A stretch of DNA of 42,058 bases from Candidatus Woesearchaeota archaeon (GTDB taxonomy: Archaea > Nanobdellota > Nanobdellia > Woesearchaeales > GW2011-AR4), in contig NZDH01000006.1 of assembly GCA_002688775.1 (NCBI GenBank), positions 1 to 42,058 of the forward strand, in the 5' to 3' direction. A model generated the notes under the pieces. The model made no database searches, was not told the origin of the DNA, and saw only the letters and a program-made list of their open reading frames with translations. The number at the start of each line of letters is the position of its first letter. The stretch's first letter is position 1. The position numbers and the translations under genes are program-made. Below, piece by piece: positions 37,640 to 42,058 of this stretch.

Positions 37640-38665
37640 TTAATTTTCTTTATTTTCTTCTTTGCTCTTTTTTGGGCCATGCAGCATTTCGTCGACTTTT
37701 TGACCTACCTTTGCTTCCATATCCGGAGTGAGTTTAATCCCTTCGCTTTTCTTTTTTTGTTCATGTGGCTCATTTTTTTCATTAGGATGTTGGAGTTGTT
37801 CAGTCTTTTGTTCTGATTTTTCTTGCTTTGGTGCTTCATCTGGAGTTTCTTCCTTAGTATTTTCTTTTTCTGTATTTGTATCTTCTCTTGGTTCTTCAAC
37901 CACATCTAGATTTCCGAGTTTTTCTTTTTCTACAATAACACTTGGAGTTTTTGCAACATCTTCAGATTTATTTTCTGTAGGTTTTTGCTTTGATTCATAT
38001 GTGTCCAATGGAACTTTAAATTCCTCGCCTGATTTGTCCAGTGATTCTATTTCTTTCTTTATTTTTTCATCTTCCTTTTTTAGATCCTCTGCCCTTTTTG
38101 CCTGGTCTTCCTTTATTCTTGAAACTTCCTCTTCTTTTGACTTGATTGCCTTGGCTATACTGGCAAAATCCTGGAATTGATCTTTTAGTTTTTCTTCTGT
38201 AAGATCAAAATATTTGAAGAATTTTTCAGTAAGCTTGATCAAATTGGTTCTCCCATGCTTTTGCCGGGTTATATAGCTCGATTTTTCCAATTCTACAAGA
38301 TGGTCATATGCCTTGTTTGTTCTTATCTTTATCAAATCCGACTGCAAAATAGGGTATTTAAAGGCAACAACAGCAAGAGTTTCAAGCACACTCCTTGTAA
38401 GTTCTGTTTCTGTAACAATCTTCCTTACTATTGGTATGAAATGGTCCCTTACAGTAAATTTCCATGAATCTCCTTCCTCAACAAGCATCAAGCTTGACTG
38501 CTTTTCGTCATATTCGTTCTTTAGCTCATTCAGCGCTGTGATTACGTCTTCCTTTCTTGAGCGGCATAATTTGCTTATATCATCAAGATTTATTTTATGC
38601 CCTACAGAAAATAGAACTGCTTCAACTTTGCTTTTTACACCTGCTTTTTTTAGCTCCGCCATCAT
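37640..38665 (-). CDS. scpB: Segregation and condensation protein B-like, with long acidic C-terminal tail
   Basis: VEAVLFSVGHKINLDDISKL...ETLAVVAFKYPILQSDLIKIRTNKAYDHLVELEKSSYITRQKHGRTNLIKLTEKFFKYF. Confidence 0.88.
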   Translation of the reverse strand: MMAELKKAGVKSKVEAVLFSVGHKINLDDISKLCRSRKEDVITALNELKNEYDEKQSSLMLVEEGDSWKFTVRDHFIPIVRKIVTETELTRSVLETLAVVAFKYPILQSDLIKIRTNKAYDHLVELEKSSYITRQKHGRTNLIKLTEKFFKYFDLTEEKLKDQFQDFASIAKAIKSKEEEVSRIKEDQAKRAEDLKKEDEKIKKEIESLDKSGEEFKVPLDTYESKQKPTENKSEDVAKTPSVIVEKEKLGNLDVVEEPREDTNTEKENTKEETPDEAPKQEKSEQKTEQLQHPNEKNEPHEQKKKSEGIKLTPDMEAKVGQKVDEMLHGPKKSKEENKEN

Positions 38666-39246
38666 ACTAAAGCATAGATATCTTTCTCTTTTTTAATCTT
38701 TTTTTCTTTAATTAGATTATTTACGAAAATTTCAAGTTCTTTTTTATCAACTCCGGTGACTTGTGAGAGCTGCTCAAGTGAAAGTTTACTTACTTTCAGG
38801 CATATCAAGATCGAATTATGGAGGATGGCATTCATGTTGCTTCTTAAGAAATCATTTTCAGATTTTGATTTCTTTACAATCATATCAACATTATGAAGCC
38901 TGGCCTGCAGATCATTCAGAAAGTTTGATATTTCCTGTTTGGAAATGGATAATTCATCCGGCTTTTCAACTTCAAGCGATGATGGCATGTACTCAAAACA
39001 GAAACTAATCAATTTTTTTGTGCCTTTTATAACCAAATCTAGCTCTACAAATTTGCTCCATAATTTGCCTTGTTCCTTTATATCAGAATAATGCTCATTT
39101 AGTATGGCCAAGTCAGAATCCTTCCTTATATGGTCTGTGTACTCCTTCAATGAATTTTCGACATGCTCCTTTGGCTTGCCTAAAACCTCAATAATAGTCT
39201 TGCATCTAATATGTGATTTTTCTCCTTGTTTTTCAGTTTCAACCAT
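38662..39246 (-). CDS. Hypothetical protein translationally coupled to scpB
   Basis: HIRCKTIIEVLGKPKEHVENSLKEY...GKLWSKFVELDLVIKGTKKLISFCFEYMPSSLEVEKPDEL; overlaps scpB by 4 bp. Confidence 0.8.
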   Translation of the reverse strand: MVETEKQGEKSHIRCKTIIEVLGKPKEHVENSLKEYTDHIRKDSDLAILNEHYSDIKEQGKLWSKFVELDLVIKGTKKLISFCFEYMPSSLEVEKPDELSISKQEISNFLNDLQARLHNVDMIVKKSKSENDFLRSNMNAILHNSILICLKVSKLSLEQLSQVTGVDKKELEIFVNNLIKEKKIKKEKDIYALV

Positions 39247-39984: not shown

Positions 39985-40788
39985 TTATCTTCTCCATATC
40001 AGTATCATATTCAATAATACAGACAATACCAGAAGGAAGAGGATGATTAGGTCTTTTGCTCTTTCATTGCTGGATTCATAAACAAATTCAGATTCTTTTA
40101 CAGCAGCTCCTGTTGCTTGATTAGGGTTTTTTTGATTATTTTCTGTTCTTAGATGAATTATATTTTCAAATTCCTCATTTTCTGATGCTTCGTTTGTTTC
40201 AACTTCTTTAGTGGCTACTGGAATTTCTTTATTATTATTCTCTTCATTTATCAACTGGGGATTATCTATTTCGTTTGTTGTATCGAGTTTATTTTCTTCA
40301 TTGATTTCTGTCTTATTCTCTTCTTTAGATTCTTCTTCTGTTTTAGGTTGTGTTGGTTCAATATTTTCAATTCTGCCCTGTTCATTTTCTATTTTTTCTT
40401 CTATTATTTTTATTGTTTGTATATCGATATTGTTGTCTTTGTTTGTATCATCACATTCAACATAAATTTTTGAGATGATTTTGTATTCTCCTGTCTTCAG
40501 ATTTGGAGAATATTTGCTTGAGGTTTTCTGCTTTGAGATTGAACGATTTGTCCAAGGCTTGTATTTCTTGATGATTTTGTCGTTTAAATCTATTATTTCA
40601 GCTCTGCCAGTGATGTTTGTAGGTATTCCGTCTACTTTGATGGCCCTCATTCGCCATACAAACTCTTCTACAGTAAATTCTTCATCATCAACAATTATGT
40701 CAATTTTATAATCACATTCGGGTGCTTGAGCATAAGAAATATAAGGCAAAACCATTACAATAGCAAGAATTATAAATATAGACTTCAT
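39985..40788 (-). CDS. Secreted or cell-surface protein with Ig-like N-terminus, acidic E/N-rich linker and C-terminal TM anchor
   Basis: Signal MKSIFIILAIVMVLPYISYAQA; C-terminal DLIILFLLVLSVLLNMILIWRR. Confidence 0.75.
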   Translation of the reverse strand: MKSIFIILAIVMVLPYISYAQAPECDYKIDIIVDDEEFTVEEFVWRMRAIKVDGIPTNITGRAEIIDLNDKIIKKYKPWTNRSISKQKTSSKYSPNLKTGEYKIISKIYVECDDTNKDNNIDIQTIKIIEEKIENEQGRIENIEPTQPKTEEESKEENKTEINEENKLDTTNEIDNPQLINEENNNKEIPVATKEVETNEASENEEFENIIHLRTENNQKNPNQATGAAVKESEFVYESSNERAKDLIILFLLVLSVLLNMILIWRR

Positions 40789-40912
40789 TTATGCTAAAAA
40801 CATAGTGAGTTATTTATTATTTGTGGAACAAAATTTGTACAATATCACTATCAGGTAATGCTAACAAAAGTTTTAATAGAAACGCTATACATTTGAAAAA
40901 GGGTGAGTTTAA

Positions 40913-41557
40913 GTGGGGTTTTTAAAGTTCTTAAAGAGGGAGAAAAAGACGGATAATTTAGAGGAATTAGATTTGCCTCCTGAACCACCGGCATTAGAGG
41001 GCTTTGATGAAGGCTCTGATCTTGAATTTCCAGATTTGGGTGAACAAAAGCTTCCAAGTTCTGATAAAGTACCTGCTGATATTCCTGAAGAAGATGGTTT
41101 GCCTGAATTAGAAGAAGACATGCCTAACTTCCCAACAATTCCTGACGTTGAAGAAAACCCAATGCCACCTATACCTCCAATTAGTGCTCCTCCACAAACT
41201 CCTGAAGCTGAAATTTCCCCGCCAATCATTGAAAGCGAAAAAGAGGATTTAGTTCAAACTCCTGTTGAGCCACAAATCCAGGCAAAACCAGTAAAGAAAC
41301 TATTTGATCATGAGAAAAAAGCTCCTGAAGTAAGACCAGGCAAACATAAAGTTTATGTCAGAGTCGACAGATACAAAAATACCCTTGATAGCATCAGTTT
41401 GGTTAGGGGTGATTTAAGAAATTCTGAAAAGATGTTAATCAAAATGGATAATATAAAAAATGCGAAGGATAGATCATTTGAGAAGGCTAAATCCTCCCTT
41501 ACTGACTTACAAAAAAAACTTATTTTTATTGATAAAACATTATTCAAGGGTGAGTAA
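40913..41557 (+). CDS. DPANN-type modular protein: amphipathic N-terminus, acidic/Pro-rich linker, C-terminal helical module (gene 1 of 3)
   Basis: GTG start with GGGTGAG upstream: MGFLKFLKREKKTDNLEELDLPPEPPALEGF...; C-terminal HKVYVRVDRYKNTLDSISLVRGDLRNSEKMLIKMDNIKNAKDRSFEKAKSSLTDLQKKLIFIDKTLFKGE. Confidence 0.85.
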   Translation: MGFLKFLKREKKTDNLEELDLPPEPPALEGFDEGSDLEFPDLGEQKLPSSDKVPADIPEEDGLPELEEDMPNFPTIPDVEENPMPPIPPISAPPQTPEAEISPPIIESEKEDLVQTPVEPQIQAKPVKKLFDHEKKAPEVRPGKHKVYVRVDRYKNTLDSISLVRGDLRNSEKMLIKMDNIKNAKDRSFEKAKSSLTDLQKKLIFIDKTLFKGE

Positions 41558-41559
41558 AA

Positions 41560-41799
41560 ATGACAGACCATAAAGGAGCTCCTGTTTTCGTCAAAGTAGA
41601 TGAATATAAGGAGATTTTAGATGTATTAGACCTGATTAAGGGCAGGATTAAAGACATAAAGGAAACTTTAGGCAGCATAGATCAGCTAAGAAATGAGGAA
41701 GATTCAGAAATATCAATGTGGAATCGTACAGTGGAAGATATAGAGAAAAAAATTGATAATATTGATAAGATTATGTTTGAGCCTGAACAATCATGGTAA
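41560..41799 (+). CDS. Stand-alone helical module protein homologous to the C-terminus of the preceding gene (gene 2 of 3)
   Basis: GAPVFVKVDEYKEILDVLDLIKGRIKDIKETLGSIDQLRNEEDSEISMWNRTVEDIEKKIDNIDKIMFEPE; GGGTGAG upstream. Confidence 0.88.
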   Translation: MTDHKGAPVFVKVDEYKEILDVLDLIKGRIKDIKETLGSIDQLRNEEDSEISMWNRTVEDIEKKIDNIDKIMFEPEQSW

Positions 41800-42058
41800 A
41801 TAATCCAAAAAAACAAGACGGTGAACTATTTTTTGTAGAAATTAAGGAGCCTGCTGAAGTCAGGAGAAATATTCTTGAATCCTTAAGAAATATACTTGAG
41901 ATGCTAAAGGAGTTTGAAAAATTTAAGCATATAAGGCATGAGAAAAGTGAAAAAATACAGAAATTAAGGGGATTGGTGAGAGGCACCAACAAGATGATGG
42001 GAAGGTTAAGAGTTAGTTTGCCTCAAACAAGCCTTAGAGGAGTTGTTGTAAAACAAGT
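41793..42058 (+). CDS. Third gene of the cluster, truncated by the window end (not in ORF track)
   Basis: ATG at 41793 overlaps the previous stop: MVNNPKKQDGELFFVEIKEPAEVRRNILESLRNILEMLKEFEKFKHIRHEKSEKIQKLRGLVRGTNKMMGRLRVSLPQTSLRGVVVKQ... Confidence 0.85.
   Translation, partial: MVNNPKKQDGELFFVEIKEPAEVRRNILESLRNILEMLKEFEKFKHIRHEKSEKIQKLRGLVRGTNKMMGRLRVSLPQTSLRGVVVKQ

Follow-up and report, generated by a model that had tools for sequence, protein, structure and literature searches.

Related Systems and Families

The archaeal membrane anchor of FtsZ, SepF (PF04472), is built from an N-terminal hydrophobic or amphipathic tag, a flexible linker and a C-terminal interaction module, and its N-terminal 12 residues bind membranes (PMC8178401). 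The first of three adjacent genes in a Candidatus Woesearchaeota archaeon, here referred to as gene 1, has a comparable layout, but its module is a coiled-coil helix and not the SepF fold, and searches of gene 1 against Pfam returned neither the SepF domain (PF04472) nor any other family. Of 149 genomes of the phylum, all carry FtsZ and 144 carry SepF, and the source genome has a separate SepF gene (Table 1). This near-universal, separate occurrence of SepF alongside FtsZ rules out gene 1 as a SepF replacement.

The SMC-ScpA-ScpB condensin is, like genes 1–3, rich in coiled coil, and ScpB is a conserved neighbor of these genes in the order Woesearchaeales (hereafter the order). Unlike condensin, however, genes 1–3 lack a kleisin or winged-helix domain as well as an ATPase and a hinge. 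Neither the ABC ATPase head nor the hinge of SMC/Rad50 was found in these proteins of 79–214 aa, which matched SMC/Rad50 models in generic coiled-coil regions only, far below the cut-off. SNARE bundles also assemble ~60-residue heptad helices from several subunits around a central polar core layer. They are parallel, whereas coevolution favors an antiparallel gene 3 helix, an orientation not confirmed by AF2 (see below); furthermore, gene 1 has its tag at the N-terminus and lacks a transmembrane anchor, and the core carries E, K and R charges in place of the Q/R layer. No SNARE motif or homolog of a solved SNARE was found for genes 1–3 in Pfam and PDB sequence searches. The division proteins ZapB and EzrA are small coiled-coil scaffolds as well, to which genes 1–3 gave stray single-member matches at E ~1e-3. 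For ESCRT-III/Cdv, the Pfam searches with genes 1–3 likewise gave no match.

Pfam and NCBIfam searches with genes 1–3 yielded scattered sub-threshold coiled-coil matches, none of which recurred beyond a few members, and PDB sequence searches returned generic coiled coils only. Measured against these three databases, the suggestion of an undescribed DPANN system made in a preliminary description of this DNA holds, and no published description of the genes was found in the literature searched. A published survey of DPANN proteins describes 51 families that are widespread in Pacearchaeota and Woesearchaeota, most of them with no assigned function (PMC8204110); genes 1–3 may be among them.

Gene Organization and Translation Signals

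The three genes lie at the end of the window, by which we mean the whole stretch of 42,058 nucleotides analyzed (Table 1). Rechecked ORF coordinates agree with those first given, and extension past position 42058 on the full contig (C6, 79,551 bp), as had been proposed, completed gene 3. The GGGTGAG ribosome-binding site said to be common to genes 1 and 2 was found in two copies on the forward strand of the window and none on the reverse strand, each copy 5 nt upstream of a start, and the reported overlap of genes 2 and 3 measures 7 nt.

Within the order, a Shine-Dalgarno-like site precedes gene 2 in 86/113 loci and gene 3 in 15/113. Median gaps are 10 nt between genes 1 and 2 and 2 nt between genes 2 and 3, with 26/113 overlapping. 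The small number of Shine-Dalgarno-like sites at gene 3, together with the 2-nt median gap, fits translational coupling of genes 2 and 3.

Table 1. Coordinates of the three genes, their parts and other loci mentioned in the text (window positions unless a locus or contig is named).
Feature	Position	Strand	Description or basis
GGGTGAG ribosome-binding site, gene 1	40901-40907	+	Sequence
Gene 1	40913-41557	+	ORF, GTG start, 214 aa; tag, acidic/proline-rich arm, C-terminal long helix
N-terminal tag VGFLKFLKREKK, gene 1	40913-40948	+	A few hydrophobic residues followed by basic ones; candidate for membrane targeting
Flexible acidic, proline-rich arm, gene 1	40949-41350	+	Composition
Helix module copy, gene 1	41351-41545	+	BLASTP 2e-12 and hhalign 99.5% against gene 2; heptads
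GGGTGAG ribosome-binding site, gene 2	41548-41554	+	Sequence; also codes for the gene 1 end KGE
Gene 2	41560-41799	+	ORF, 79 aa; little beyond the helix module
Helix module, gene 2	41584-41778	+	Conserved alignment columns
Gene 3	41793-42058 in window; end at C6:42173	+	ORF, 126 aa; N-terminal long helix, variable basic arm, C-terminal amphipathic helix
N-terminal helix, gene 3	41826-42008	+	Heptads; polar core R48, K51; coevolution with module helices
Conserved C-terminal amphipathic helix ELERLEAELGSIESKLKSF, gene 3			Layout, AF2 included
194-aa gene	38662-39246	-	Sub-threshold PCI/winged-helix match
Divergent neighbor of gene 1	39985-40788	-	Secreted, acidic linker, C-terminal membrane anchor (predicted)
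SepF gene, source genome	G000:C12:578-787		Separate from gene 1
Gene 3 with zinc finger	L042:9080-9574 (also L086)		Classical C2H2 insert in linker, CDRCDKEFKSRQSLTKHHKLH
Diverged gene 3-like protein	L152:5400-5807	-	AT-hook-like QRGRPRKN in basic linker
tRNA-Gly(GCC)	L154:7059-7130		Between module gene and gene 3
Homing endonuclease ORF	L030:7599-8351		LAGLIDADG-like, 250 aa; contig C6, past window

A Helix Module Shared by Genes 1 and 2

The C-terminus of gene 1 had been described as aligning with nearly all of gene 2, pending profile-profile comparison. BLASTP recovered this alignment without gaps (32% identity over 65 aa), and family profiles built from 34 loci matched with 99.5% probability (E 8.6e-23, 71 columns; hhalign). 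The equally heptad-rich gene 3 profile served as an internal control for generic coiled-coil similarity and reached 13%, 34% and 28% probability against the module profiles. The likeness of the gene 1 C-terminus and gene 2 is thus far above that of generic coiled coils on the same profiles, and by these alignments the two are true paralogs. Searches of genomes with the module gave matches almost solely at the locus of genes 1–3, usually two per genome, which argues that the profile is not gathering random coiled coils.

In all three helices a 3.5-residue heptad pattern (power peak at 3.5) runs without interruption for ~60 residues, and each has a single central polar break in its hydrophobic core, at equivalent columns. 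Counted from zero, with gene 3 numbering shifted by one relative to genes 1 and 2, these columns are 36 and 39 in genes 1 and 2 and 35 and 38 in gene 3. In gene 2, E39 is 100% conserved and the K/R column 36 is 84% K; in gene 3, K38 is conserved at 96% and R35 at 66%. In protein numbering, the polar core residues are K182 and K185 in gene 1 and R44 and the invariant E47 in gene 2. The module family of genes 1 and 2 is defined here by an F-V-x-[IV]-[DE]-x-Y start, a ~60-aa heptad helix, a polar core at 36/39 and a position adjoining gene 3, and both genes show these features.

Gene 3 had been said to begin with a similar pattern, and one duplicated module had been proposed to underlie all three genes. 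The similarity of layout stands (an F-V-x-I start, heptads and a central polar block), and the duplication stands for genes 1 and 2. For gene 3, a third copy of the module is possible but unproven at the hhalign probabilities given above; the F/Y-V-x-[IV] start common to all three helices speaks in its favor, as do their unbroken heptads and the matching position of the polar break.

A more skeptical reading is that genes 1–3 are three unrelated helical proteins that form no complex and resemble one another as coiled coils do. The occasional weak matches to numerous unrelated families of coiled coils would fit it, as would the 13–34% for gene 3 against the module, but the 99.5% match between the gene 1 C-terminus and gene 2, the phylum-wide conservation of one locus and the coevolution between helices all count against it. 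We regard it as very improbable, and for genes 1 and 2 as largely refuted.

Predicted Helix Structure

In two related genomes (L080 and L120) the three genes share one frame with single stops between them, which allowed them to be modeled as a single AF2 chain with the stops read as glycine, a modeling device by which no read-through is claimed. The model had continuous helices at 6–66, 91–151 and 177–232 (mean pLDDT 78, pTM 0.48). A second AF2 chain, of genes 2 and 3 from a homolog with a natural 44-residue linker, had both long helices at pLDDT 94–98, the short C-terminal helix of gene 3 at pLDDT ~95 and disordered linkers (pTM 0.57). As modeled, the module is a single ~60-residue helix. The continuity of the AF2 helices ruled out a helical-hairpin reading of the module; of the small helical subunits of the preliminary description, the helical character is borne out, but each module is predicted as one long helix and not as a multi-helix unit.

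Foldseek searches with both AF2 models gave no match at E <= 0.001 and returned generic coiled coils only. The short-linker model resembled antiparallel hairpins (~134 columns, 2.9 A), a likeness biased by the short linkers, which force that arrangement, while the 44-aa-linker model did not match antiparallel hairpins (rmsd >10 A in the listed hits). The orientation of the helices is therefore not confirmed by AF2.

Long heptad helices with a register common from end to end might also be expected of a polymerizing, cytoskeletal or filament-forming coiled coil made of repeated bundles. No repeat extends past one 60-residue unit per protein, however, and long flexible arms would be unusual in a filament former; this reading appears highly unlikely.

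Coevolution Between Helices

Mean-field couplings were calculated for 149 triplets of genes 1–3 (Neff ~133) and for 52 pairs from the wider class (Neff ~44). Couplings within each protein followed the i+3/i+4/i+7 pattern of a helix. Tests of single diagonals were noisy and a band test was used in their place, centered on i+j=74, the antiparallel register that stacks every core layer and brings the polar blocks face to face. With a band picked once the diagonals of a first pass were known, shuffles that ignore phylogeny and modest depth, genes 1 and 3 of the order scored 4.26 at i+j=74 against 0.71+-1.03 in shuffled data (best bands 75 and 74), and the module and gene 3 of the class scored 3.66 at 74 and at best 4.24 at 73 (shuffled 0.23+-0.83, 95% of maxima <2.91). 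Genes 2 and 3 peaked in the same region at 1.76, which was not significant (95% of null maxima <2.68), and the band between genes 1 and 2 was not significant.

The top couplings in the band were plausible contacts and joined core residues (F43-F31 and L50-L24) or opposite charges (D61-R11 and K21-E51), and K21-E51 was found twice, between genes 2 and 3 in the order and between the module and gene 3 in the class. For the docking site of the gene 3 C-terminal helix, coevolution gave nothing significant. The signal in two separate clades supports a physical, antiparallel pairing of gene 3 with a gene 1-type helix, which also lends support to the hetero-oligomer suggested earlier. Despite its limits, the signal is direct evidence of contact between these proteins. 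Genes 1–3 probably form one complex.

Tag and Arms

A tag-like motif was found in 174/203 gene 1 homologs from the order and class (for example MGFLKFLKR, MGLFSKKK and MGWLFGKKKK), and this conserved N-terminus suggests that gene 1 may associate with the membrane. Among other proteins of the source genome, the gene 1 tag had one chance match, in an arginyl-tRNA-synthetase-like frame. The gene 1 arm has a median net charge of -12.5 and 17% Pro (188 order loci). In the order, ~72% of loci have a gene 3 linker with a net positive charge (median +4), and the Lys content of the arm is 22%. In one gene 3 the linker contains an inserted zinc finger, and the linker of a diverged gene 3-like protein contains an AT-hook-like motif (Table 1).

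Distribution and Evolution

The relatives belong to Candidatus Woesearchaeota and Nanoarchaeota. Gene 2 was found in 57/60 relatives, including 27/27 near-complete ones, and gene 3 in 52/60. A broader profile detected the module in 189/197 sampled genomes of the phylum (183/190 high-quality ones). Synteny in related genomes, on which the idea of a system had been made to depend, is conserved: a neighborhood survey within the phylum found the order of genes 1, 2 and 3 kept in 188/194 loci of the order, and gene 1 homologs of like layout in the same proportion (188/194). In the wider class there is usually one module gene with the architecture of gene 1 followed by gene 3 (52/60 loci). By eye, further diverged gene 3 copies were seen in several class loci, and in some others no recognizable gene 3 beside the module gene.

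In the module tree, class copies split from genes 1 and 2 with support of 0.96 and gene 2 from the rest with 0.95; support for a branch of gene 1 alone was weak (0.29). Identity to the class copies was 33% for gene 2 and 24% for gene 1. Since outside the order a single gene 1-like copy normally accompanies gene 3, the tree and gene content place the duplication of one ancestral gene at the order's base, gene 1 retaining the arm and gene 2 the helix sequence.

The module gene and gene 3 are also carried by a 490,885-bp single-contig class genome (L154) resembling Nanoarchaeum equitans in size and gene content, its MinD and transglycosylase genes lying where NEQ119 and NEQ124 have been reported; by gene order, the N. 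equitans pair would be NEQ121/NEQ122. In this genome a tRNA-Gly(GCC) lies between the module gene and gene 3, whose frame opens directly behind the 3' end of the tRNA and lacks an evident ATG; tRNA processing may therefore release its mRNA.

Genomic Neighbors

In 20 neighborhoods from the order, GyrA (15/20), ScpB (15/20), a 194-aa gene (15/20), PCNA (12/20) and RNase J (11/20) were the recurrent neighbors, and in 6/10 other order families ScpB and gene 2 were no more than ~6 kb apart. Neighborhoods from the class most often contained transcription factor E (14/20; named from its sequence). The linkage to ScpB and the basic arm of gene 3 hint at the chromosome. The neighbors outside the order differ and are mostly transcription factor E, so this link is not phylum-wide.

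One special case of the scaffold or tether favored below is a tether between membrane and nucleoid, with the gene 1 tag on the membrane, the basic gene 3 arm on DNA and the coiled coil bridging the two. It would account for the order-level linkage to ScpB, the PCI/winged-helix-like gene, GyrA and PCNA, for the Lys-rich arm (22% K), and for the C2H2 zinc finger (L042/L086) and the AT-hook-like RGRPRK (L152). The last two are single cases, however, some families have an arm that is not basic, and the wider class has transcription factor E and not ScpB as neighbor; we consider this tether unlikely.

The genes could instead be accessory to the FtsZ/SepF divisome, as a second membrane-tethered coiled-coil scaffold comparable to EzrA, ZapA and ZapB. 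Gene 1 has the tag-linker-core layout of SepF (PMC8178401), the divisome is always there in the genomes surveyed for FtsZ and SepF, and MinD is close to the module in the N. equitans-like genome. But with SepF universal, gene 1 is not needed to anchor FtsZ; the genes showed no consistent linkage to ftsZ or sepF, and the EzrA and ZapB matches occur among dozens of unrelated coiled coils. Such a role seems improbable.

Three other features of the neighborhood were observed. The 194-aa gene with the sub-threshold PCI/winged-helix match lies directly upstream of ScpB, the spot expected for ScpA, and two class genomes, L152 and L153, have a homolog close to the module gene. The predicted secreted protein encoded divergently from gene 1 has no Pfam family, and its order relatives are ~240–730 aa. 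The LAGLIDADG-like ORF sits between gene 3 and RNase J and is common to few relatives.

Proposed Complex and Significance

We propose that the products of genes 1–3 assemble into a small heteromeric coiled-coil complex in which the ~60-residue helices of genes 1 and 2 would pack with the N-terminal helix of gene 3, the latter running antiparallel. A buried charged block in mid-helix (E in gene 2; R and K in gene 3) would set the register and the choice of partner. The gene 1 helix would be carried on the long acidic, proline-rich arm, with the hydrophobic-basic tag at its N-terminus binding the membrane, and the variable, mostly basic arm of gene 3 would lead to the conserved amphipathic helix, docking on the bundle or on a partner. 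The complex may thus be a membrane-attached scaffold or tether, most likely on the chromosome or division side. The gene order, the duplication, the heptads of the long helices, the near-universal occurrence in the sampled phylum and the statistical coevolution are observed; membrane binding, stoichiometry, cargo and role of the complex are what we infer here. That it is a membrane-attached heteromeric coiled-coil scaffold or tether serving a core cell process is a tentative reading, to which we give somewhat less than even weight; the chromosome is our leading guess for the cargo, and a doubtful one.

Conservation in ~96% of a phylum's sampled genomes, one of them among the smallest known, is normally a mark of essential genes. 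As nearly every genome of the phylum carries the complex, a basic cellular role is probable. The gene set is near-universal in the sampled phylum and unnamed, a larger finding than was apparent in the preliminary description. At its broadest, and on our estimate rather unlikely, genes 1–3 could be an unrecognized core machine of an entire DPANN phylum, retained even in the 490-kb genome: an antiparallel heteromeric coiled-coil tether with a membrane tag, running from the membrane to the chromosome or another core structure, whose two-subunit ancestor acquired a third subunit by a duplication basal to Woesearchaeales. The order-level duplication would be a clear example of how duplicating a gene adds a subunit to a complex. 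With small genes in one set, and with predictions of co-purification, an antiparallel E-K/R core and tag-dependent membrane binding, a core yet blank area of DPANN cell biology is now open to direct tests.
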